Shown here one piece after another: positions 3,820-29,652 of a stretch of 32,825 nt of DNA. Within the stretch, counting starts at the first letter, position 1. Each line of letters opens with the position of its first letter. Where the stretch lies: assembly GCA_014361445.1 (NCBI GenBank), contig JACIVQ010000012.1, positions 1 to 32,825 on the forward strand, written 5' to 3'. The translations under genes and the position numbers were made by a program. The notes under the pieces were generated by a model, which saw only the letters and a program-made list of their open reading frames with translations, was not told the DNA's origin and searched no databases. Source of the DNA: Methanosuratincolales archaeon. Lineage in GTDB: Archaea; Thermoproteota; Methanomethylicia; Methanomethylicales; Methanomethylicaceae.

Positions 3820-4043
3820 TTCGCCTCCTTCCTGATCGGCTTGTCGAAAGCCACTCTAAATAATTAGTCAGGGAAAAGGGCGTCATCAGATCAAAATTGT
3901 TTCATTTACAACTGCTTTAAAGTCTGCGGACTATGCGCACTATAAAACTCAAGCGCCTCAACTCCGTCCAAAACACATAGCCAACTTCTATAACTGATTA
4001 AAATTCTTGACATAGTTATCCAAAATCTTTTAAAATTGATTAT

Positions 4044-4398
4044 AAAGCGAGTGCCCAGAAAACCTAGAGCTTCGGCTCTGGGATGAATGGGCAGATGTTA
4101 AATACCTAGGCTTTAAAGTTAAAGTTGAGGATGCTCCGATGACTGATGAAGCCCATGTTGGCTGAGGTGAGACGGGCAGATTAGCCCATGCCTTAATGAG
4201 AGGTATGGGATAGGGGAGGAGTGACGCCCCCCGAACCAGCATATGTGGCCGGAACGCAACGCCACAAAGGCAGGCTGAACGCTGGAACCTCGCACCATAC
4301 GGTGTGCTTCCAACAAAACGGGCTGGAGGGCGACCGATGAAGCCTAAACTGGAGAAAAAGCTGGAAGCTCCCGACTTTAGTCGCGGAGAGGACGTCAC
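4044..4398 (+). mobile_element. IS605-like miniature element with omega-RNA-like 3' end, copy 1
   Basis: 355 bp, beginning after TTAT with AAAGCGAGTGCCCAGAAAAC and ending GGAGAGGACGTCAC. It shares both ends and most of its interior with the copies at 22355-22704 and 29296-29647. In order it has a left-end hairpin (about 4063-4082, GAGC/GCTC), a TATA-like GTTAAATACC, a hairpin CCCATGCC/GGTATGGG, a GGGG/CCCC hairpin, a CCAGC/GCTGG helix enclosing GTGGC/GCCAC, a CACC/GGTG hairpin and a terminal hairpin CTCCCGACTTTAGTCG. The terminal hairpin closely resembles IS200/IS605 right ends, which form the 3' end of TnpB guide RNA. One frame just before it reads EKAGSSRL-stop, like many TnpB C-termini. 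No transposase ORF is present. It points into the CBS-treT operon. Confidence 0.75.
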
Positions 4399-4445
4399 AT
4401 GGAAAAATGGTTATAATTCACAAAAACAATTATATTGTGAAGCTT

Positions 4446-9270: not shown

Positions 9271-9681
9271 ATGGTGAAGAGAATAGCTGTAGTTGATGTT
9301 GACCTTTGTGTAGGATGCCAGTCGTGTATGTTTGCGTGTAACAGGCGCTTTGGTGAGGCAGGGCTTGCTAGGACCGCGATATTCGTACAGTCCACAGGGG
9401 GTTTTGAGCATGGGTTTGCTGTTAAGGTCTGCAGGGCATGTAGAGAGCCCCCGTGTGTGAAAGTCTGCCCAACGGGAGCCCTCACCAAGAGGGAGGGGGG
9501 AGGGGTGAGGCTTGACCACAGGAAGTGTATATCGTGCGGGAACTGCGTCTCGGGCTGCACCATAGGGGCCATCTTCTGGGACGAGGTCTTGGACAAGCCA
9601 ACAGTCTGCACTTACTGCGGGTATTGCGTCTCATACTGCCCCTACGGGGTGATAAAATTGGAGGAGGTGGAGGGCGCATGA
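9271..9681 (+). CDS. Four-cluster [4Fe-4S] ferredoxin-like subunit of the AOR operon
   Basis: 136 residues with sixteen cysteines in four ferredoxin motifs: CVGCQSCMFAC, CRACREPPCVKVCP, CISCGNCVSGC and CTYCGYCVSYCP. This is the layout of HycB/DmsB-type electron-transfer proteins carrying four [4Fe-4S] clusters. No signal peptide, so cytoplasmic. Its stop codon overlaps the start of the tungsten oxidoreductase gene by 4 bp (ATGA). It is therefore the likely dedicated electron acceptor or wire for that enzyme rather than a general ferredoxin. The start ATG at 9271 gives MVKRIAVVDVDLCVGCQSC; no clear Shine-Dalgarno motif is visible. Confidence 0.93.
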   Translation: MVKRIAVVDVDLCVGCQSCMFACNRRFGEAGLARTAIFVQSTGGFEHGFAVKVCRACREPPCVKVCPTGALTKREGGGVRLDHRKCISCGNCVSGCTIGAIFWDEVLDKPTVCTYCGYCVSYCPYGVIKLEEVEGA

Positions 9682-11459
9682 CTGAGGCATCTTCGCTCTC
9701 GAGGGTGCTCTACGTAGACCTCAGCAACAAGAGGTACTGGATAAAGGAGAGAGGGGACCTATTCAAGGAGCGTCTAGGTGGGGCAGGGGTTGCCATAAGG
9801 CTGTTGAAAGAGGAGTGCAAGGAGGGGACGGACCCCCTCGCGCCTGAAAGCCCCATAATATTATGTGTGGGATATTTCAATGGTGTATTCCCGTTAGCCT
9901 CAAAGACCGTGGCGATGTTCAAATCCCCTCTCACGAAGAACCTAGGCGAGAGTCACGCTGGCGGAAGGTGTGGGGTTGCGATGAGGATGGCGGGTCTTGG
10001 GGGCATTGTGATAAAGGGCAAGAGCGAGATACCCGTCTATTTGGTGGTCAATGATGAGGGAGTAAGGTTCAAAGACGCCTCGGCTCTCTGGGGTATGAAC
10101 AGCAGCTCCACCGTGGGCAGGATAATTAGGGAGAGAGAGGCTGGCGCGGGCATCAGGGCGATAATGAGGATAGGAAGAGCGGGGGAGAATTTGGTCTCAT
10201 ACGCAGGTGTGATCACCGAGACCTTTAGGCACTTCGGGAGGCTTGGACTGGGGGCGGTATTCGGGTCAAAGAAGTTGAAGGCCATAGTGATCCATGGGAG
10301 GGCAAGCCTCACCCTGAGGGACGCAAGGGGCTATAGGGAGGTTTACGACGAGCTTTTCAGGAACTTCACAAAGACTTCGCTGATGAAGAAGTACCACGAG
10401 CTCGGGACGCCCATGAATGTCTTGCCTCTAAACGCGGCAAACTCGCTCCCCTCAAGAAACCTACAGAGGGCGACTTTCGAGGGCGCCAACGCGCTCTCAG
10501 GGGAGGCTATGTCGGAGAGGTACTTGGGCAGGAGGGCAGCCTGCGGTCATTGTCCGGTGAGCTGCATCCATATAGCGGCGCTAAGAGTCCCCTACGAGAC
10601 TGAGTCGCACTTCTACAAGACGAAGATGATATCATATGACTATGAGCCCATATACGCGCTTGGTTCCATGCTGGACATAAGGAGTCCGGAGGGGTTCCTC
10701 CAGCTCATGGACAGGGTAGAGGAGCTGGGCTTGGATGCGATGAGCACCGGCGTGGCTCTTGCCTGGGCGACTGAGTGCATGGAGAAGGGGATCGTAGGAC
10801 CGGAAGATACCGGAGGGATTGTCCTGAGTTGGGGGGATTATAAGACTTACATTAAGGCGGTGGAGAGGATAGCAGGGGTTAAAGGGGAGTTCTATGAGGC
10901 TTTGGGCAAGGGCGTGGAATACGCCTCATCAATTTACGGAGGAGAGGAATTTGCCCTCGCTTTTGGCGGAAACGAGATGCCAGGTTACCACTGTGGACTC
11001 GCCACGCACCTTGGATTTTTGGTTGGAGCCAGGCACAGCCACCTAGACAACGCGGGCTATGCCATAGACCAGAAATTGAGTGTTGAAGGGAGGAGGGCGG
11101 AGCCCCCCGAGTTGGCTAAAATGATATTTGAGGAGGAGTGTTGGCGCCAGGTCCTCTCCAGCCTGGTGGTCTGCTTCTTTGCAAGGGGGGTTTACACACC
11201 AGAAGTGGTGAGCAAATGCCTCACTGCGATGGGAATAAACCTCACCCCAGAAGATCTGAAAAAGGTAGGAGAGGACATATTGAGGGAAAAATATGAATTC
11301 AAGTTCAGAGAGGGATTCTCCTTCGATGGGCTCAGGGTGCCCAAGAGGGTGACGGAAATCCCAACTCCGCGGGGATTTGTGACCGAGAAGGATCTCAGAG
11401 AGGGTATAAAAAGCTTTGAGGAGCTTCTGAAAAAGCGCATGAGCGCAAGAGCGCAATGA
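9678..11459 (+). CDS. aor: Tungsten-dependent aldehyde:ferredoxin oxidoreductase family enzyme
   Basis: 593 residues from the ATG at 9678, which overlaps the ferredoxin stop; length is close to the ~605 residues of characterised AORs. These enzymes oxidise aldehydes to acids with a bis-tungstopterin and one [4Fe-4S] cluster and give electrons to ferredoxin. Visible: the N-terminal RVLYVDLSNKRYWI and RLGGAGVAIRLL, the pterin-binding region SPLTKNLGESHAGGR and RIGRAGENLVSYAGV, the cluster motif CGHCPVSC (C-x2-C-x3-C) and a later single cysteine in SSLVVCFF. The substrate (general aldehydes, glyceraldehyde-3-phosphate, formaldehyde) cannot be told from sequence. The tungstate importer at 14.2-16.6 kb fits the metal. 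Cytoplasmic. Confidence 0.93.
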   Translation: MTEASSLSRVLYVDLSNKRYWIKERGDLFKERLGGAGVAIRLLKEECKEGTDPLAPESPIILCVGYFNGVFPLASKTVAMFKSPLTKNLGESHAGGRCGVAMRMAGLGGIVIKGKSEIPVYLVVNDEGVRFKDASALWGMNSSSTVGRIIREREAGAGIRAIMRIGRAGENLVSYAGVITETFRHFGRLGLGAVFGSKKLKAIVIHGRASLTLRDARGYREVYDELFRNFTKTSLMKKYHELGTPMNVLPLNAANSLPSRNLQRATFEGANALSGEAMSERYLGRRAACGHCPVSCIHIAALRVPYETESHFYKTKMISYDYEPIYALGSMLDIRSPEGFLQLMDRVEELGLDAMSTGVALAWATECMEKGIVGPEDTGGIVLSWGDYKTYIKAVERIAGVKGEFYEALGKGVEYASSIYGGEEFALAFGGNEMPGYHCGLATHLGFLVGARHSHLDNAGYAIDQKLSVEGRRAEPPELAKMIFEEECWRQVLSSLVVCFFARGVYTPEVVSKCLTAMGINLTPEDLKKVGEDILREKYEFKFREGFSFDGLRVPKRVTEIPTPRGFVTEKDLREGIKSFEELLKKRMSARAQ

Positions 11460-11599
11460 AACACAGGTGATCTCTACTTGACCATTAAATTTCAAAAGTA
11501 GGCACTCCTTAGTTGGAGCGGGGAGTTTCGAAGTAAAGATGTTGGAAAACAGAATAATTTGAAATAGTTGTTTGAACAACTTGTGAGTGAGGGCACAAA

Positions 11600-13132
11600 T
11601 TGAAGGAATTAATATTCTTTTTTGAGGTGCACCAGCCGAGGAGAATTAAGCGGAACTTTGGTAGGAAGTACACCTACCAAGGAGTTGAAGACATTTACTT
11701 TGATGATGACCTTAACAGGGAGATACTTCACAGGGTTGCTAACCACTGTTACATACCAGGGTTGGAGAATCTGTTGAAGTCTGCGGAGGAGGACGGTTTC
11801 AAGTGTGCTCTGGGGGTCTCTGGAATTTTTCTTGAGCAATGCAGCTGGTGGGAGCCGAGGATCATTGAGCTGATCAAGGAGCTTGTCGCATCAGGTGCTT
11901 GCGAGCTTGTGGCAGAGACTTACTACCACTCGCTGGCATATATGATAAACTTTGATGAGTTCAAAGAGCAGGTGGGTGCCCACAGGAAGATCATTAAGGA
12001 GCTCTTCGGCCAAGAGCCTTTAACTGCTGAGAACACTGAGTTCATCTACAACAACGATATAGCTAAAGTCTTTGAGGAGATGGGCTTCAGGGTTGTGCTA
12101 ACCGAGGGCGTGGAGAGGGTACTGGGTTGGAGATCACCAAACTATGTCTACAAGGCAAAGGGATCAGAGGTTTCTGTACTGATGAGAAACTACATGCTCT
12201 CGGACGACATTGGGTTCAGGTTCACCTGCAGAGACTGGAATGAGTGGCCCCTGACTGCTGAGAAGTATGTTGATTGGTTACACAAGAGTCCTGGGGACCT
12301 CATATTAATAGCCATGGACTTTGAAACTTTTGGTGAGCACCACTGGCCAGATAGCGGGATTCACGAATTCATGAAGGCACTTCCGAAGGAGGTAAAGAAG
12401 CGCGGGGATATGATCTTCTCGACCCCGTCGGAGGTTACCTCCAGACTTCAACCAGTTGACGAAGTCGACGTCCCAGAGGCAATATCTTGGGCTGACTTGG
12501 AGCGGGACTTGTCAGCCTGGCTCGGTAACGATATGCAGAGGCACTGCTTCGATGTCGTAAAGTACCTCGAGCCCATGGCAAAGAGCTTGGGCGGAAAATT
12601 CCTCAGGACTTGGAGGTATTTCACCACGAGCGACTACTACCATTATATGAGTACAAAGGGGGGAGGGGCAGGGGCGGTGCACTCTTACTTCAGTCATTTT
12701 AACAGCCCAATAGAGGCCTTCCTGAGCCTCACATGGATCTTGGCAGACTTCAGATACAGGCTGTACGACGCGATGGGGGAGAAGGCGACATACTACAGAA
12801 TGCTATTCGGAGATCTGCCGGAGACGCACGCCTTCCATTTCTACTCAGGGTTTGCGGAGCCGATCGGCGTGAGTGTTAAGAACTTGATTGAGTTACGTGA
12901 GGCTCTAGATAAGATAGAGGAGAGGTCATTGAAATTCCACATCGCTAGAGGGGATTTGAGTATGTGGGTGGACGAGGTCCTTGGGTGCAAAGGGCTCGCA
13001 CAGGAGTTGTTGGCTTTGAAAAGTCTACCTGAAGGTTGGAGGGAGAGCGTTATTAAGGCGGTCGAAGAAACCATAGTCTCGGCAAAAAAAGCGCTCTTCG
13101 GGAGTGAGGAATATGAAGCTGGAAAAGTTTAG
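11600..13132 (+). CDS. GH57 family alpha-amylase-like glycoside hydrolase
   Basis: 510 residues from a TTG at 11600. It opens KELIFFFEVHQPRRIKR, the GH57 conserved region with the HQP motif. The catalytic region has AETYYHSLAYM, GQEPLTAENTEFIYNND (nucleophile glutamate region) and AMDFETFGEHHW, which matches the DYETFGEH motif carrying the acid/base aspartate in archaeal GH57 alpha-amylases. No signal peptide, so it acts inside the cell, presumably on glycogen or maltodextrins. The galT start lies inside the end of this gene, so the two are co-translated. Other GH57 activities (4-alpha-glucanotransferase, branching) remain possible, but the motif form favours the amylase group. Confidence 0.9.
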   Translation: MKELIFFFEVHQPRRIKRNFGRKYTYQGVEDIYFDDDLNREILHRVANHCYIPGLENLLKSAEEDGFKCALGVSGIFLEQCSWWEPRIIELIKELVASGACELVAETYYHSLAYMINFDEFKEQVGAHRKIIKELFGQEPLTAENTEFIYNNDIAKVFEEMGFRVVLTEGVERVLGWRSPNYVYKAKGSEVSVLMRNYMLSDDIGFRFTCRDWNEWPLTAEKYVDWLHKSPGDLILIAMDFETFGEHHWPDSGIHEFMKALPKEVKKRGDMIFSTPSEVTSRLQPVDEVDVPEAISWADLERDLSAWLGNDMQRHCFDVVKYLEPMAKSLGGKFLRTWRYFTTSDYYHYMSTKGGGAGAVHSYFSHFNSPIEAFLSLTWILADFRYRLYDAMGEKATYYRMLFGDLPETHAFHFYSGFAEPIGVSVKNLIELREALDKIEERSLKFHIARGDLSMWVDEVLGCKGLAQELLALKSLPEGWRESVIKAVEETIVSAKKALFGSEEYEAGKV

Positions 13133-14111
13133 CGAATGCGCAAGGATTCTGGACCCTAGGAAGGGGTTTGCTGAAACCTCTCAAGTAATAGAAATAAGAG
13201 TAGATCCCCTAACGGGCGGAATTTCCAGGATAAATATGGCAAGAGAGTTGAGGCCCAAGCAGGAGATAAAGGGCTTAGAGACTCCCGTACCACCTGATTG
13301 TCCTTTCTGTCCGCAGAACATAGATAGAGATACTCCGAAGTTTCCTGAGGACTATGTGAGGGAGGGGAGGATAAAGAATGGCGGCGCCACCATATTCCCG
13401 AACCTTTACCCTCTTGCGGATCTCCACGGTGTTTGCGTTTTTACTGGTGCTCATAAGTTAGACCTAGACAAGTTTTCAAAAGAGGAGATAATGGAAGGGC
13501 TCAAGGCCTCTAAAGAGTTCTTCAGAATAGGGACCGAGAGAGGGGCGATCTACCATTTTTTGGGATGGAACCATATGCCGAATGCAGGGGCGTCCATACT
13601 ACATCCCCACTTTCAGCTGATAGCATCAAGGTCAGGATTGAAGGGGGAGAGGGAGCTATTCGAGGCTTGTGAAAGGTACTGGAAGAGGGAGGGGAGGAGC
13701 TACTGGTCGGACCTGGCGGAGGAAAGGAACTCAGAGAGATATGTGGGAGAGGAGGGGGGCATACTGTGGGTTGCTCCATGGGCTCCCATGGGGACTTACG
13801 AGGTTATTGGTTTCAGCACTCAAAGAGCGAGCTCGCTGGTGGCGCTTGATGATGGGGGGCTGGAGGCTCTCTCGGAAGGGATCGTGAGGATACTAAAAGG
13901 TCTGTGGGAGCTCGGGGTAAGGGCAGTTAACATGGTGGTTTACTCGTTCCCTGAGAGTGTGGAATGGTTCAGCCTCCATGCCAGGGTGATGGCAAGACCG
14001 AGCGGTGCCACTACAGACAAGGCATTCCTGGAGATCTATGGGTCAGAAGTCGGACTGACGGCTCCTCCAGAGGCTTATGCCAAAGTACTCAAGAGCCGTT
14101 TTAGATCATAA
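13113..14111 (+). CDS. galT: Galactose-1-phosphate uridylyltransferase
   Basis: 332 residues from the ATG at 13113 (MKLEKFSECARIL), preceded by GTGAGG; a GTG at 13104 in frame is the alternative. GalT swaps UMP between UDP-glucose and galactose-1-phosphate through a uridylylated histidine. The signature HPHFQLIA is the HIT-superfamily H-P-H-x-Q active site, preceded by WNHMPNAGASILHPH. CPFCPQN near residue 65 is the zinc-site CxxC. GGATIFPNLYPLADLHGVCV is also typical. It overlaps the GH57 gene by 20 bp. With the amylase and the glycogen locus it indicates interconversion of hexose phosphates. A related nucleotide-sugar phosphorylase activity is possible in archaea. Confidence 0.9.
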   Translation: MKLEKFSECARILDPRKGFAETSQVIEIRVDPLTGGISRINMARELRPKQEIKGLETPVPPDCPFCPQNIDRDTPKFPEDYVREGRIKNGGATIFPNLYPLADLHGVCVFTGAHKLDLDKFSKEEIMEGLKASKEFFRIGTERGAIYHFLGWNHMPNAGASILHPHFQLIASRSGLKGERELFEACERYWKREGRSYWSDLAEERNSERYVGEEGGILWVAPWAPMGTYEVIGFSTQRASSLVALDDGGLEALSEGIVRILKGLWELGVRAVNMVVYSFPESVEWFSLHARVMARPSGATTDKAFLEIYGSEVGLTAPPEAYAKVLKSRFRS

Positions 14112-14122
14112 TTGAGCGGAAA

Positions 14123-14149
14123 GTCAACTACCCACGGCTTTAGCCCTGG
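14123..14149 (-). repeat. Solo IS605-like right-end scar
   Basis: Read on the reverse strand it has an imperfect hairpin (stem GGC/GCC, loop TAAA) followed by GTGGGTAGTTGAC, the form of many IS200/IS605 right ends. It shares GCCGTGGGTAG with 17381-17391, which lies on the opposite strand. No transposase is nearby. Confidence 0.4.
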
Positions 14150-14166
14150 ACCTCCTTGGAGGTTTT
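14150..14166 (+). terminator. Hairpin plus T-run downstream of galT
   Basis: Six-base-pair stem ACCTCC/GGAGGT with a TT loop, followed by a short T run (14163-14166). It sits 39 bp after galT and before the convergent tungstate ATPase gene. Archaeal terminators often need only the T run, so the hairpin's role is inferred. Confidence 0.4.
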
Positions 14167-14199
14167 CTGATTAAACCAGCCAAGGATTTACTTAATCCA

Positions 14200-14898
14200 T
14201 TAAATCAACCGGCTTTGGTAGCCAAAGACGTCCCTAAAAGAGCCTATTGCCCTTATCTCCCCTTCGTTGAGCAGGGCGACCCTGTGTGCCAGCCTTTCAG
14301 CCTGAAACATGTTGTGAGTGGTCATAATGACGGTGGTCTTTTTTTCCCTATTCAGACGTGAGAGGATGCCCTCAACTATAGAAACGTTCTTCGGGTCAAG
14401 ATTGGCTGTGGGTTCGTCCAGTAGCAGGAGTTTTGGCTCAGCCACCAGTGCTTGTGCCAACGCGACCCTTTGCGCCTCGCCGCCAGAGAGGGACAGGGCG
14501 TTCTTCCTCTCAAAGCCCCGGAGCTCCACATCCTCAAGTACCCTCGCCACCTTCCGCTCGATCTCAGCCTTAGCAAGATCGCCCCTGATCTTAAGCGGAT
14601 ATGCCACATTATCGAAAACACTCATGTCAAATAGAACTGTCTGCTGGAAGACCATCCCTATCTTCCTGCGGAGAGTTGCCCTCTCCTTTGAATAGTCCAC
14701 CTCCTCTCCCTCGAAGAACACCTTGCCAGCGGTTGGTTCTTCCAGTAGGTCTAATATTCTGAGGAGTGTGGTCTTGCCTGAACCATTGGGACCCAAGAGC
14801 ACAAAAAACTCCCCCTCGTGGACGTCGAAGGTCACATCCCTCAGAACGAGTCTCCCCGAGTACTCCTTGGACAGACCACGGACCTCCACGGCTTTCAT
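14200..14898 (-). CDS. tupC: Tungstate ABC transporter, ATP-binding protein
   Basis: 232 residues with Walker A GPNGSGKTT, Q-loop KIGMVFQQTVLF, signature LSGGEAQRVALAQAL, Walker B KLLLLDEPTANLD and H-loop TTHNMFQAERL. Standard length for an importer ATPase without a C-terminal regulatory (TOBE) domain. It is the last gene of a tupA-tupB-tupC operon and starts 7 bp after tupB. Substrate is assigned from the TupA partner, not from this protein. It powers uptake of tungstate at the inner face of the membrane. Confidence 0.9.
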   Translation of the reverse strand: MKAVEVRGLSKEYSGRLVLRDVTFDVHEGEFFVLLGPNGSGKTTLLRILDLLEEPTAGKVFFEGEEVDYSKERATLRRKIGMVFQQTVLFDMSVFDNVAYPLKIRGDLAKAEIERKVARVLEDVELRGFERKNALSLSGGEAQRVALAQALVAEPKLLLLDEPTANLDPKNVSIVEGILSRLNREKKTTVIMTTHNMFQAERLAHRVALLNEGEIRAIGSFRDVFGYQSRLI

Positions 14899-14905
14899 GC
14901 TTGAG

Positions 14906-15592
14906 CTACCTCCTTGCCCCCTTGATTTGGAGAATGGTCAATGCCAGATTAATCACGAAGGCTATGGACAGTAGTATGGCGCCAAGCGTCAGAGCCATAT
15001 TAAAGTTTCCAAGCTCGGTCTCCACCACTATGGCCGTGGTCAGTGTGCGCGTAAACCACCTTATATTTCCCCCGCTGATCATTATGCCTCCAACCTCAGA
15101 TATGGCTGCGCCGAAGGCGACTATTATGGCTGTCAGGACGCCCACGCGAGCCTCCCTCAGGACCAGAAAAGCCGCTTGATTCTTTGTGGCGCCCAGCGAG
15201 AGCGCCTTTTCCATTATGGATCTCTCGACGCTCCCCACCGCCGACATGGTCACGCCGATGATGATAGGGACGACCATGATCAGCTGAGTTATAACCATGG
15301 CTGTGGGCGTGTAAAGGAGGCCCAACCAGCCGAGAGGACCAGACGATGTGAGGAGGAGGTAAACGACTAGCCCAACGGCTACGGGCGGAAGGCCCATGAA
15401 CGTGTTTATTATGCTCTTTAGCATTACGTCGACAAAGCGCATCATCGTCTTTTTCCCTTTGAATTGCCTAAAACCTAAGTACGCCCCGATCGGGATCCCT
15501 ATCAGTGCACCAATTAGTACAGCTGTGCCAGAGACCCTGAGAGAGAGTAAGGTGATGTTTATTATCTCTTGGAGAAAAATATCTTCAACCAT
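14906..15592 (-). CDS. tupB: Tungstate ABC transporter, permease
   Basis: 228 residues, an MetI-like permease with five or six membrane helices (e.g. LRVSGTAVLIGALIGIPIGA, VAVGLVVYLLLTSSG, MVITQLIMVVPIIIGVTM, LTLGAILLSIAFVINLALTI). The cytoplasmic coupling loop is EKALSLGATKNQAAFLVLRE, the EAA motif that contacts the ATPase. The length and the GLPPVAVGLVVYL motif are typical of TupB. It forms the transmembrane channel as a dimer. It lies between tupA (78 bp gap) and tupC (7 bp gap). Confidence 0.9.
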   Translation of the reverse strand: MVEDIFLQEIINITLLSLRVSGTAVLIGALIGIPIGAYLGFRQFKGKKTMMRFVDVMLKSIINTFMGLPPVAVGLVVYLLLTSSGPLGWLGLLYTPTAMVITQLIMVVPIIIGVTMSAVGSVERSIMEKALSLGATKNQAAFLVLREARVGVLTAIIVAFGAAISEVGGIMISGGNIRWFTRTLTTAIVVETELGNFNMALTLGAILLSIAFVINLALTILQIKGARR

Positions 15593-15670
15593 TGTTCACC
15601 ACACTCCAAATTGGGCATTAATGGGAGGTTGTTTTCGAGCCCCTGTCGACAAAATGCGTTATGACTATGG

Positions 15671-16594
15671 CTAATGGGCATCATACCAGGCGATCTCCTC
15701 CTCCTGGTCCGGAAACCCCAACTCATGGGCCTTCTCATAGTTGCGGGCAATAGGCGTGAAAAGGGTCTCGCCAAATTTCGTGAAGTTGCCTATCAGGTTT
15801 TGACCCTCATCCGAGATCATCCATTTTACCAAAGCAACGGCACCATTAAAGTTCCTTTGCGGGTATTTTTCCGGATTAACCAGTATCACTGAATAGGGGT
15901 TCAGTAAAAGTGGATCACCCTGGACAAGGACCCTCAGGTTAGTAAGTTGACTCTTGAAAGAGAGCCATGTTGCCTTGTCGGTGATTGTGTAGGCTCTCTT
16001 GTCGTTTGCCATGCGCAGCACGGCACCCATGCCGGCACTCGCTTCCAGATACCACTTCTGATCCCGGCTCGATGGACTTATTCCGAGACTCTCCCATATT
16101 ATCAGCTCGACCATATGTGTACCAGACTTGTCTGCCCTGGAGATAAACGAAGTAACGCCCTTACTACCCCCTTCCGCGATCCTCCGGAAAGCCTCTGTTG
16201 CGTTTGTTAGACCCCTTATGTTGGCAGGGTCTTCTGCCGGGCCTATTATAATAAATTCGTTATACATCACACCGACTCTGTGAATTCCGTAGGTGCTGTT
16301 GACGAATTCGAGCTCTTGCTCCCTTGAATGCACCAGTATGAGGTCTACGTCGCCTCTCATGGCAGCCTCTATGGCTTGGCCTGTGCCTACTGAGATTATA
16401 TGAACTTTAATCCCGTGTTCGCTCTCAAATTTTGGTAACAAGTAATCCAAAAGACCCGAGTCGTAGGTGCTTGTGGTAGTCGCGAGGAATACCACCGGTC
16501 TTCCTGAAACGGCGTAATGCTCGTAGGCAATGGAGCTCACAATGGCAATTGTGAAAAGGAGAGCTACGGAAAGTATTTTCGAACGCCTCCACAT
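15671..16594 (-). CDS. tupA: Tungstate-binding protein TupA
   Basis: 307 residues. A positively charged start and hydrophobic segment (RRSKILSVALLFTIAIVSSI) form a signal peptide or membrane anchor. The mature part begins with the TupA hallmark LATTTSTYDSGLLDYLLP; TTTS supplies oxyanion contacts. ISVGTGQAIEAAMRGDVDLI and the late SDEGQNLIGNFTKFGETLF follow. This distinguishes it from molybdate ModA and from WtpA. It captures tungstate outside the cell and delivers it to TupB. The gene is divergent from the ModE/TOBE-type regulator; the intervening 86 bp holds a palindrome. The likely consumer of the tungsten is the AOR at 9.7-11.5 kb. Confidence 0.94.
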   Translation of the reverse strand: MWRRSKILSVALLFTIAIVSSIAYEHYAVSGRPVVFLATTTSTYDSGLLDYLLPKFESEHGIKVHIISVGTGQAIEAAMRGDVDLILVHSREQELEFVNSTYGIHRVGVMYNEFIIIGPAEDPANIRGLTNATEAFRRIAEGGSKGVTSFISRADKSGTHMVELIIWESLGISPSSRDQKWYLEASAGMGAVLRMANDKRAYTITDKATWLSFKSQLTNLRVLVQGDPLLLNPYSVILVNPEKYPQRNFNGAVALVKWMISDEGQNLIGNFTKFGETLFTPIARNYEKAHELGFPDQEEEIAWYDAH

Positions 16595-20417: not shown

Positions 20418-22337
20418 GTGCAATACCTGCCAGAGATAGAGGTCGGGGTCCAAGAGGAAAAAGACTGGGACTTCGCGAGAAATAAGCAGGTCTTATTGAA
20501 GGCGAGTATGGGGGAGTGGTCGTCCTCAGTCTTCTCTGTAGAGGTTCTCCTTAAGAACGAAAGGTTTGTTGGTCCAAACAGGGATTACCCCTACCAAGGG
20601 TTGCTGATATCGAAGGCGGAGAGGGTATACAAACTGCTGGACGGGATCATGTTCTCTATGGAGGAGGGCTGTGCTGAAAAGGTCTTTGTTGGGCCTTACA
20701 GGGTGAGGTACATTTACACTGATCTGGATGTAGAGCTGAGTTTTGTTGAGGATTCATTCCAAGCAAGTTTCAACAGAGATTGTGTCAGGGTTTTGCCATT
20801 TTTTGATATTAGGGGCGTAAACGGGGAGGGGTCCTCGGGAGTTAGAATCGCGCCCCAAGGGAGGTGGTTGATGGTCTATTTCGACGGTTTGAGGGCTGCG
20901 GTTGGTCCATTCAAAGAGATCGAGCCCACAGATTATTCCACAGAGTGGGTTTACAAGCTGGGGAGCGGTTTTAGGTACAGGGAACCAGAAGGTTACATAA
21001 GGTTCGTGAGGGAGAAGAGGAAGATCCATGCGCCAGCTGTATGCGTGGTGGATGGGAGAGGGCTTAGAGTGGTTGTAGATGGTCTGAAGAATGATGCGGC
21101 AGTGAAGGATCTTTCATGGATGAGCAGGGTATATTTCTTGGAGCCCAGGCTCCGCGACATAATGATCCTCAGGCTGTCCACCTTGAGGTGTTTCGGTTTA
21201 AACATCCGGGGGGGATGGTTCCCAGAGGCAGGCTGCTGGTGGTTCAGATCTCCTTGGATTAGGGACGCGCTCGAGGGAATAATAAACAATTTCCAAGTTT
21301 ACACCCAGATCTTTGCATGGGAGGAAAGGATTAGGGCGCTTGCCGGGATGCTGATGGATGTGCTCAAGGAGAAGAGGGGGCTCCCCAACCTCATAGGCGG
21401 CGAGGACTATTCTGCAGATGCACCACCACTTCTGCTTTACTTATGTGCTCTGCTGGGAGGAGAGCTCAGAGATAGGGCGGCTTCTTTGGCTCTTGAACTA
21501 TTGGATGAGATGGAGGCAGGGGATATGGTCTGGAAAGGACCCCCTGTTTTAAGGGGCGGGCTAGTTGCATGTGCCCCATACCAATCCTGGACAGACTCCA
21601 TTGTAAACGGGAGGGCATGCAGATTGCCCACCGGGTGGGACAGCACCGAGCGGTCTCTGCCCAAATACTACCTGCCGGAGGTTAACGGTCATTGGATAAG
21701 GGCTTTGAGGGGGCTCTGCGGCGGGATATCGGAGAATAGATCGGAGTTGGGAAAAAGGCTTGCGGAGAGGCTAAAAGAGATGGAAGGAGCCTTCAGGCAA
21801 AGGTTTTGGGATGGAAGGTTCGTCTCGGACATTGTGGACTGCGAGAGTAACAGAAGGTTTGAAGAGCTAACTTCAATGGGGATGGTTGGGATGGTAACGG
21901 CGATCCATCTATTCAATAAAGATGAGGTTAGAAGCGCTTACCAGAATTTTAAAAAGCTGGTGGTGAACAGAACCCTGAGGGTGCTCGGCGATGCCACCCT
22001 CCCCTTCGGCGTGGCTATATCCAAGAGGGTGGAGCCCTACCTTGGGGATGAAGAATACCACAGGTCTGCAATCTGGCCCAGAGACACCCCTTACCTAATA
22101 AGGCTACTTGAGCATATGGGGTTGGAGATCGAGATCAGGGGGATATTGTTGAACAACCTCGACCATATGATCTGCGAGGGGGCGATCCTCTATGAAAGCG
22201 AGTTGTTTGGACATCCGGTTGGGAGGAACCCCCACCCCTCTGAAGGGAGCATGAACCCCATACCCTTGAAGAACCCTGCTCAATACTGGAGCCACTGGTG
22301 TGATCCATATATTAATAGGTTCATTAGGCCGGCTTAG
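20418..22337 (+). CDS. Glycogen debranching enzyme-like amylo-alpha-1,6-glucosidase
   Basis: 639 residues from a GTG at 20418 with GGAGG 8 nt upstream. The N-terminal ~270 residues are a beta-rich domain (GPNRDYPYQGLLISKAERVY). The C-terminal half is an (alpha/alpha)6 barrel: WFRSPWIRDALEGIINNFQ carries the W-x-R-D active-site motif, and YLPEVNGHWIRALRGLCG and RSAIWPRDTPYLIRLLEHMG are also typical of archaeal GDE-type enzymes. It removes alpha-1,6 branches from glycogen so that amylase or phosphorylase can continue. Cytoplasmic (no signal peptide). Transcribed away from the glycogen-synthase operon. The copy 2 miniature element starts 17 bp after its stop and would be transcribed towards it, antisense. 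Confidence 0.85.
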   Translation: MQYLPEIEVGVQEEKDWDFARNKQVLLKASMGEWSSSVFSVEVLLKNERFVGPNRDYPYQGLLISKAERVYKLLDGIMFSMEEGCAEKVFVGPYRVRYIYTDLDVELSFVEDSFQASFNRDCVRVLPFFDIRGVNGEGSSGVRIAPQGRWLMVYFDGLRAAVGPFKEIEPTDYSTEWVYKLGSGFRYREPEGYIRFVREKRKIHAPAVCVVDGRGLRVVVDGLKNDAAVKDLSWMSRVYFLEPRLRDIMILRLSTLRCFGLNIRGGWFPEAGCWWFRSPWIRDALEGIINNFQVYTQIFAWEERIRALAGMLMDVLKEKRGLPNLIGGEDYSADAPPLLLYLCALLGGELRDRAASLALELLDEMEAGDMVWKGPPVLRGGLVACAPYQSWTDSIVNGRACRLPTGWDSTERSLPKYYLPEVNGHWIRALRGLCGGISENRSELGKRLAERLKEMEGAFRQRFWDGRFVSDIVDCESNRRFEELTSMGMVGMVTAIHLFNKDEVRSAYQNFKKLVVNRTLRVLGDATLPFGVAISKRVEPYLGDEEYHRSAIWPRDTPYLIRLLEHMGLEIEIRGILLNNLDHMICEGAILYESELFGHPVGRNPHPSEGSMNPIPLKNPAQYWSHWCDPYINRFIRPA

Positions 22338-22354
22338 GATTAGTAGGCGATGAG

Positions 22355-22704
22355 GTGACGTCCTCTCCACGACTAAAGTCGGGAGCTTCCAGCTTTTCCT
22401 TTTGGTTAGGCTTCATCGGTCACCCTCCAGCCCGTTTTGTTGGAAGCACACCGTATGGTGCGAGGTCCCAGCGTTCGCTCGAGGCTTTGCGCCTTCAGCC
22501 ACATATGCTGGTTCGGGGGGCTCACACTTACGCCTCCCCCATCCCATGCCTCTCGTTAAGGCATAGGCTATATCCTGATCACCTCAGCCAACACGGCCTC
22601 ATCAGTCATCGGAACATCCTCAACTTTAACTTTGAAATAGAAGTATTTAATATTTGCCCATTCATCCCAGAGCTGAAGCTCTGGGTTTTCTGGGCACTCG
22701 CTTT
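22355..22704 (-). mobile_element. IS605-like miniature element with omega-RNA-like 3' end, copy 2
   Basis: 350 bp on the reverse strand, bounded by TTAT upstream of AAAGCGAGTGCC and by GGACGTCAC at 22355. Left-end hairpin, internal TATA-like AATATTAAATAC and terminal hairpin are as in copy 3. The middle differs: the arm after CCAGC is rebuilt (AGGC/GCCT hairpin in place of GTGGC/GCCAC) and the G-run/C-run hairpin has a different loop, yet both helices remain. The first stem is CCTATGCC/GGCATGGG, a G-U pair replacing G-C. The right end points into the 3' end of the debranching gene. Near the left end one frame reads FKVKVEDVPMTDEAVLAEVI, perhaps a protein remnant. Confidence 0.75.
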
Positions 22705-22774
22705 ATAAAAAAAGATGATAATACTCCAATTTTTACATCATTTAGCAGTATCCAGATTTCGGTGTTTCGCCGAC

Positions 22775-27572: not shown

Positions 27573-27646
27573 GCCCGAGTAGCTCAGCCTGGGAGAGCAT
27601 CCGGCTGAAGACCGGAGTGTCGCCGGTTCAAGTCCGGCCTCGGGCA
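27573..27646 (+). tRNA. tRNA-Phe (GAA)
   Basis: Acceptor GCCCGAG/CTCGGGC, D stem GCTC/GAGC, anticodon stem TCCGG/CCGGA with loop CTGAAGA (anticodon GAA), and T arm GCCGG-TTCAAGT-CCGGC. No intron. CCA is not encoded (A is followed by CCT). A TATA-like CTTATTAAG lies about 30 bp upstream (27538-27546). The last 23 bases of the gene and the next three are repeated exactly at 29920-29945. Confidence 0.97.
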
Positions 27647-27649
27647 CCT
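27624..27649 (+). repeat. att-like repeat, tRNA-Phe copy
   Basis: 26 bp exact match to 29920-29945, covering the T arm and 3' end of tRNA-Phe. This is the usual archaeal integrase attachment site. With three more matching bases beyond one mismatch the similarity reaches 30 bp. Confidence 0.9.
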
Positions 27650-27714
27650 ATGAACCTTTTACTGATGAAAAAGCTTCACCAAAAATACATTTTTTCTGAC
27701 ATTGTTCAGGGCTG

Positions 27715-28250
27715 ATGGTACGGTACAATAGCGAAGACCTGGTCCAAGAGTTTAAGAAATTCCTGAAAATAGACAAGCAGTTCCCAAAAAGACCGTGGAC
27801 AACCACCTTTCCGTGCTCAACTCGCTGATGGAGTTCTGCGACCCCCTCGAAGTCACCAAGGACCAGCTCAGGGACTACCTCGGGCAGTTCTTGGACCAGC
27901 CGAAGACCTACGCCTACCACCTATGCGGCCTGAAGAGGTTTTACAGGGACTTCTTGGGGTGCCCCGACCTCGTCGACTCCTTTAAGTTCCCCTCCATCAT
28001 CCCCCGACCGAAGTTCATCCCATCAAAGACGGAGTTAAGGGAGTGTGCCTCGTGGCTGGACCAGAAGGACCTGGCGCTATTCCTTACCCTCGCATCTTCG
28101 GGCGCCAGGAGGTCTGAAGTCTTGACATTAGCCGTAAAGGACGTCGACCTGGACAGGCGGATGTTCACCCCCTCGGATAGCCAAGGCTTCTCCATTTGTA
28201 TGGACGATGATTTGTTTAGAACTAAAATGAAAAAGTTGGTTTTATCTTAA
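27715..28250 (+). pseudogene. Broken tyrosine integrase, N-terminal part
   Basis: It starts MVRYNSEDLVQEFKKFLKID 66 bp after tRNA-Phe. The frame shifts at an A5 tract (27786-27790), after which VDNHLSVLNSLMEFCDPLEV and later ASSGARRSEVLTLAVKDVDL follow, an archaeal SSV/pNOB8-type integrase with its N-terminal SAM-like domain. The first catalytic arginine (GARRSE) is present. After DRRMFTPSDSQG the sequence turns unrelated and stops; the His-x-x-Arg box and tyrosine are missing. Its place beside the tRNA-derived att site shows it belonged to the integrated element. Confidence 0.85.
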
Positions 28251-29231: not shown

Positions 29232-29295
29232 AAGGTTACACCTATTTAATTATCAGCTTACTATAAGCGATATACCTAATAATATTACTTATTAT

Positions 29296-29647
29296 GTGAC
29301 GTCCTCTCCACGACTAAAGTCGGGAGCTTCCAGCTTTTCCTTTTGGTTAGGTTTCATCGGTCACCCTCCAGCCCGTTTTGTTGGAAGCACACCGTATGGT
29401 GCGAGGTTCCAGCGTTCAGCCTGCCTTTGCGGCGTTGCGTTCCGACCACATATGCTGGTTCAGGGGGCGTCACTCCTCCCCCATCCCATGCCTCTCGTTA
29501 AGGCATGGGCTAATCTGCCCGTCTCACCTCAGCCATCAGCCTCATCAGTCATCGGAACATCCTCAACTTTAACTTTGAAATAGAAGTATTTAATATTTGC
29601 CCATTCATCCCAGAGCTGAAGCTCTGGGTTTTCTGGGCACTCGCTTT
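29296..29647 (-). mobile_element. IS605-like miniature element with omega-RNA-like 3' end, copy 3
   Basis: 352 bp on the reverse strand from AAAGCGAGTGCC (after TTTAT) to GGACGTCAC at 29296. Left-end hairpin CCCAGAGCTTCAGCTCTGGG, TATA-like AATATTAAATAC, perfect stem CCCATGCC/GGCATGGG, G-run/C-run hairpin, CCAGC/GCTGG helix, CACC/GGTG hairpin and terminal hairpin GACTTTAGTC within CTCC/GGAG are seen. The inner helix GTGGT/GCCGC differs from copy 1 (GTGGC/GCCAC) at two positions and both stay paired as G-U. It lies inside the tRNA-Phe-integrated segment, so it arrived with or after that element. Confidence 0.75.
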
Positions 29648-29652
29648 ATAAA

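Follow-up and report, generated by a model that had tools for sequence, protein, structure and literature searches.

Short non-autonomous IS200/IS605-type elements with a putative complete omegaRNA in a Methanosuratincolales archaeon

The three short repeats found in the stretch of DNA analyzed here are probably palindrome-associated transposable elements (PATEs), that is, non-autonomous derivatives of IS200/IS605-type (IS1341-like, tnpB-only) elements that carry a complete omegaRNA and are moved by TnpA, and used by TnpB, in trans. We hold this composite reading with moderate confidence, the use of the omegaRNA by TnpB in trans being likely but unproven. The stretch in question (the window) comprises positions 1 to 32,825 of the forward strand of contig JACIVQ010000012.1, from the Methanosuratincolales archaeon assembly GCA_014361445.1 (hereafter the source genome, G000; 1.46 Mb in 87 contigs, 90% complete).

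Copies, Boundaries, and Descent

A first-pass annotation had described three copies of a "stand-alone omega-RNA transposon" in the window, a name that is anatomically right, although the established term is PATE. The positions given for these copies (Table 1) prove exact to the base, with the left end following TTAT or TTTAT and the right end lying at GTCAC. Full-length alignment (90% mean column identity, far above chance) recovers in every copy the common ends and TTAT flank that had been reported, together with the TATA-like box, now recognizable as a conserved TTAAATA motif, and verifies that none of the three encodes TnpA or TnpB. In all three copies the right end reads GGACGTCAC and TTAT lies directly 5′ of the element, with the 3′ hairpin taking the form CTCC GAC UUUA GUC GGAG followed by GAGGACGTCAC. 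Furthermore, the proposed likeness of this hairpin to the IS200/IS605 right end that forms the 3′ end of TnpB guide RNA is borne out by an ISDra2-like architecture and by compensatory changes that extend to the pseudoknot, as discussed below.

Table 1. Positions of the mini-elements and their parts (window coordinates unless a contig is named)
Feature	Position	Strand	Remarks
Copy 1	4044..4398	+	complete mini-element, class A, 355 bp
Copy 2	22355..22704	-	complete mini-element, 350 bp; recombinant, pseudoknot mismatched (GUGAGC vs CGUCAC)
Copy 3	29296..29647	-	complete mini-element, class A, 352 bp; pseudoknot intact
TTAT target, copy 1 (presumed TAM)	4040..4043	+	directly left of copy 1
Left-end imperfect hairpin, copy 1	4053..4092	+	outer GCCCA..TGGGC, inner CCTAGAGC/GCTCTGGG
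TTAAATA TATA-like box, copy 1	4098..4104	+	tnpB promoter relic; retained in nearly all mini-elements
tnpB start codon position, copy 1	4139..4141	+	GTTCCGATG context; tnpB starts here in the related element on C57
omegaRNA scaffold, copy 1	4180..4398	+	5′ hairpin, stem 1, stem 2, stem 3, end hairpin, pseudoknot
Pseudoknot 5′ strand GUGACG, copy 1	4221..4226	+	in stem 1 loop; architecture as in PMC10097598
Right-end hairpin, copy 1	4368..4388	+	UUUA tetraloop; stem 4 equivalent
Pseudoknot 3′ strand CGUCAC, copy 1	4393..4398	+	six final bases ahead of guide
Presumed guide, copy 1	4399..4418	+	flank; expected from TnpB biology
TTAT target, copy 2	22705..22708	-
Presumed guide, copy 2	22335..22354	-
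TTAT target, copy 3	29648..29651	-
Presumed guide, copy 3	29276..29295	-
Further complete mini-elements, source genome	C13, C2, C14, C22, near C8:9200		one each

BLAST returns 26 matches to the mini-element family in the source genome (the window copies at E values from 3.5e-189 to 6.6e-111), eight of which are complete mini-elements with both ends, namely the three window copies and five elsewhere; the remaining loci are damaged or cut at contig ends. The family was found again across the phylum (Thermoproteota). We note that contigs of the source assembly end inside family copies (C34:49489, C40:11542, C55:1, C57:7543 and C24:18974). The assembly is thus broken up by these repeats, and its gaps may conceal an intact tnpB.

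As in PATEs, the mini-elements have near-terminal palindromes related to IS605-type ones, have neither terminal inverted repeats nor target duplication, lie after a short fixed oligonucleotide, and are too short for a transposase (331–355 bp in what we call class A, 250–276 bp in class B). None of them contains tnpA or tnpB, and they are thus distinct from autonomous IS200/IS605 elements, which encode TnpA. In turn, homology to the 3′ end of tnpB and the adjoining right end, combined with a covarying stem and pseudoknot architecture of the ISDra2 type, is what marks a TnpB omegaRNA, and both are found here. The left-end hairpin has been replaced with compensation in two loci (L091 and L096). 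As a separate observation, several mini-elements have kept a short frame that begins at the tnpB start codon (MTDEAxLAEV...; window 4139–4183 and equivalents). It ends no later than the first scaffold hairpin, and in copies 1 and 3 it is frameshifted or truncated.

To judge from this layout, in which the left end, the TTAAATA box, and the GTTCCGATG start-codon context are followed by a jump to the tail of TnpB, the mini-elements are internal-deletion derivatives of tnpB-bearing IS200/IS605 (IS1341-type) elements. The retained tail codes for the last ~40 residues of TnpB, and the same region constitutes the omegaRNA. Relatives with the same ends that still bear tnpB, for which the first-pass annotation had proposed a search and whose absence it would have counted towards refuting its reading, are present both in the source genome and, in intact form, elsewhere. 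In the source genome, a 1071-bp element on contig C9 contains a decayed tnpB and is bounded by TTTAT and a CTCAC end; its left end matches query positions 1–66, and its tail and right end are as in the mini-elements. On C57, a family left end continues into the beginning of a tnpB that is cut off by the end of the contig, and on C24 a matching tnpB tail and right end lie at another contig end; these may be the two halves of one intact gene. Within this 90%-complete assembly, the cognate tnpB thus occurs only in decayed or contig-broken form, and no demonstrably intact cognate TnpB was found. Intact tnpB elements are present in Candidatus Terraquivivens tikiterensis (G089; L193, 409 aa, and L195, 412 aa). 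In that genome, the mini-element L074 shares 94.6% scaffold identity with L193 and 96.2% with L194. The left and right hairpins are common to the mini-elements and the tnpB-bearing C9, L193, and L071 elements. The protein of these relatives is TnpB, matching PF07282 as well as the solved structures of TnpB (8bf8 and 8h1j, E about 6.5e-7) and of a Cas12f (2.8e-10). In another relative (G067, contig C49, L108), a tnpA–tnpB IS605 element sits within a tnpB of the mini-element family.

Elsewhere in the window, a tRNA-Phe gene is followed by an integrase-like frame (27573–28250, + strand; 151 aa, recognized by eye and without a Pfam match) that may be the remnant of a tRNA-integrated element, and the region 9271–16594 holds an aldehyde ferredoxin oxidoreductase and a ferredoxin-like gene, with an ABC transporter set including a solute-binding protein nearby that is possibly involved in tungstate or molybdate uptake.

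The omegaRNA Scaffold and Its Two Classes

When 16 class B scaffolds, from mini-elements and tnpB-bearing copies alike, were submitted to RNAalifold, the program paired GUGAGC with the terminal GCUCAC unprompted, a pairing whose counterpart in the ISDra2 omegaRNA is the pseudoknot. In the full class B structure, 93.3% of cells are paired and both sides have changed in 17 pairs, values reached by 0 of 500 shuffles, and sliding the pairing partners drops the paired cells to 35–44%. Compensatory change is seen for example in stem 2, where CCAGC/GCUGG has become CCCCC/GGGGG in L087 and CUCCC/GGGAG in L085. Since the alignment includes tnpB-bearing copies, this covariation proves the omegaRNA of the family, not its use in the mini-elements, and covariation within class A alone (seven sequences) is weak. 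The scaffold of copy 3 folds 2.8 standard deviations below its shuffles. On these comparative grounds, the retained tail can be identified as a complete omegaRNA scaffold, conserved and covarying, with the flank as its 3′ neighbor.

A structured RNA of another kind (such as a C/D box sRNA or an HgcC-like RNA), repeated by chance, might in principle produce a similar fold, and Rfam does return sub-threshold matches to sR30 (21 bits) and HgcC (14.1 bits). However, these fall far under the respective gathering cut-offs of 38 and 50 bits, there is no match above threshold at the mini-elements, and the ends, the target, the tnpB homology, and the omegaRNA architecture account for the whole element. 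We therefore treat both matches as chance and give this explanation almost no credence. The sR30 match lies at 29497–29564 (- strand), between promoter and scaffold.

The two classes differ in more than length. Class B, which includes the tnpB-bearing relatives, ends mostly in GTAGCTCAC, and class A, to which the window copies belong, ends mostly in GAGGACGTCAC and has ~65 extra nucleotides. Class A was seen only without tnpB, in the source genome and in Terraquivivens: no tnpB-bearing class A copy was found among 398 genomes of the phylum, in which two candidates per genome were scored, and a degenerate exact pattern run over all genome contigs matched only in Terraquivivens, again with no tnpB-bearing copy, and had no match in viral contigs. 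The pseudoknot strands have changed together between the classes (GUGACG/CGUCAC in class A vs GUGAGC/GCUCAC), and 7 of 10 class A copies have both of the fitting strands. In copy 2, the stem 1 loop is class-B-like and the end is of class A, which leaves the pseudoknot mismatched, the outcome to be expected if copies recombine. Across class A, mean ungapped identity is 0.86 in the scaffold, 0.72 in the left end, and 0.64 in the middle, compared to 0.44 for shuffled middles; between copy 3 and the Terraquivivens locus L072, the corresponding values are 0.85, 0.86, and 0.56.

This conservation of the scaffold is the main indication that the RNA itself may be under constraint in elements that have no tnpB, with gene conversion or undetected tnpB parents remaining as alternatives. 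It also bears on the most serious competing explanation, namely that the mini-elements are passive PATEs or MITEs, TnpA-moved deletion derivatives in which the scaffold was spared by chance and the RNA is useless. PATEs are common in archaea and arise through core deletion (PMC3119063), stems or the pseudoknot are broken in some copies, forms that lack the scaffold exist (see below), and the source assembly has no demonstrable intact cognate tnpB, all of which would fit such passive elements. However, the promoter box is kept in nearly all copies, and in class A, which has no known tnpB parent, the scaffold is better conserved than the other parts of the element and its pseudoknot strands have changed together, observations that speak against this explanation. 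We thus consider passive elements a real possibility, but not the probable one. A bolder extension of our preferred reading, which we put forward only tentatively and consider rather unlikely, is that class A forms a free-standing lineage of guide-RNA transposons, diverged from any tnpB, with a scaffold of its own (the extra 65 nucleotides and the switched pseudoknot), that selection on the RNA maintains it, and that it acts as a satellite recruiting the TnpB of other elements for RNA-guided retention.

Insertion, Movement, and a Possible Mechanism

The mini-elements insert 3′ of (T)TTAY without target duplication, and have dispersed. (T)TTAT or TTTAC forms the left flank of nearly every copy, across genera, the boundary of L079 being less clear. 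Copy 2 has a clean empty site in two genomes of the same genus (G001 and G003), reading TTTTAT or TTTCAT followed by the flank, again with no target duplication, and the flanks of copy 1 have no synteny in relatives. Recent movement is evident in G067, where two copies at separate sites are identical at 254 of 254 body bases. What sets these copies (L076 and L077, on contigs C44 and C5) apart is solely the left tip (AAGAAAGGGTGCCC or TAAAATTCGACA) and the target (TTAT or TTAC). Such a naturally occurring exchange of tips is consistent with control of target choice by the left tip.

The empty sites also bear on whether each copy could instead be a domesticated guide or regulatory RNA, held at its site for the regulation of a host gene. 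The copies are intergenic and beside genes, and TnpB-derived RNA-guided regulators (TldR) exist elsewhere (PMC13418256). Yet the many copies occupy unrelated sites, the flanks differ from copy to copy, the site of copy 2 is empty in two congeners, and no nuclease-dead TnpB partner was identified, such that we consider domestication very improbable.

Turning to the transposase, no Y1 TnpA was found in the 90%-complete source assembly, and intact Y1 TnpA is present in four family-bearing relatives (G007, G012, G067, and G089). The ends of the elements that carry it resemble those of the mini-element family; where clear, their target is TTTAC and their end GTGTCA or GTGCCA, and they differ from the TTAT copies in this target and in ending GTGTCA rather than GTCAC. 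In G080, two elements of 154–159 bp (L080:305–458 and L081:239–397) consist of the two ends only, without an omegaRNA scaffold, and hence movement does not need the scaffold.

Taking the above into account, we propose that loss of the core removed almost all of tnpB and left the ends required for single-strand transposition, the promoter, the start codon, and the omegaRNA scaffold. A Y1 TnpA acting in trans would then move (or have moved) the mini-elements as single-stranded circles, and the retained tnpB promoter would drive transcription of the scaffold together with the flank. A TnpB from elsewhere could bind this RNA and cut the donor site (TTTAT plus flank) once excision has emptied it, upon which repair would restore the element, amounting to RNA-guided retention supplied in trans. 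Our confidence in this scheme is tempered by the lack of Y1 TnpA and the presence of only pieces of cognate tnpB in the source assembly, by the differing target and end of the TnpA-bearing relatives, and by the scaffold-free G080 forms; the damaged pseudoknot of some class A copies, copy 2 of the window among them, likewise counts against it.

Relation to Known Systems and Implications

PATEs were described as the palindrome-associated transposable elements of Haloquadratum walsbyi, of which HqIRS71 in particular already had a retained C-terminal coding segment (PMC3119063). Like those, the present elements are archaeal and non-coding, have near-terminal palindromes without terminal inverted repeats or target duplication, and are related to IS605-type elements, from which they derive in part by core deletion. 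In contrast to that work, which predates the omegaRNA, we find that the retained part is a complete omegaRNA, pseudoknot included and supported by covariation, and that one of the two classes was seen only in tnpB-less form. A 271-nt PATE-like element of Halanaerobium hydrogeniformans likewise joins a left-end hairpin to the last part of tnpB and the entire right end, but it is bacterial and occurs as one copy, and the available part of that report (PMC7290912) contains no analysis of a guide RNA.

With respect to the RNA, bases -6 to -2 of the ISDra2 omegaRNA pair with a strand between the halves of stem 1 (PMC10097598), and the mini-elements share with it the order of stem 1, loop pseudoknot strand, stem 2, stem 3, and end hairpin with a UUUA tetraloop, with the second pseudoknot strand directly before the guide. 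They differ in that the RNA is encoded without its TnpB and has an extra 5′ hairpin, and, in class A, in the ~65 extra nucleotides before the end hairpin. Archaeal omegaRNAs associated with IS200/IS605 elements of Halobacterium are expressed (PMC12558985); these belong to IS200/IS605 transposase loci, whereas the mini-elements have no gene. The PATE kind is known, and what is new, to judge from the open-access papers searched, is the demonstration of a complete omegaRNA with covariation and of a class in which no copy was seen to bear tnpB.

For the most part, PATEs have been regarded as degenerate remains of IS605-type elements. If the RNA that they have kept functions as an omegaRNA, elements that are themselves non-autonomous could make use of TnpB in trans; a single nuclease would then protect many of them, and a further natural guide would arise with every insertion. 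The differing pseudoknots of classes A and B would then present a testable code, in terms of whether one TnpB serves both.
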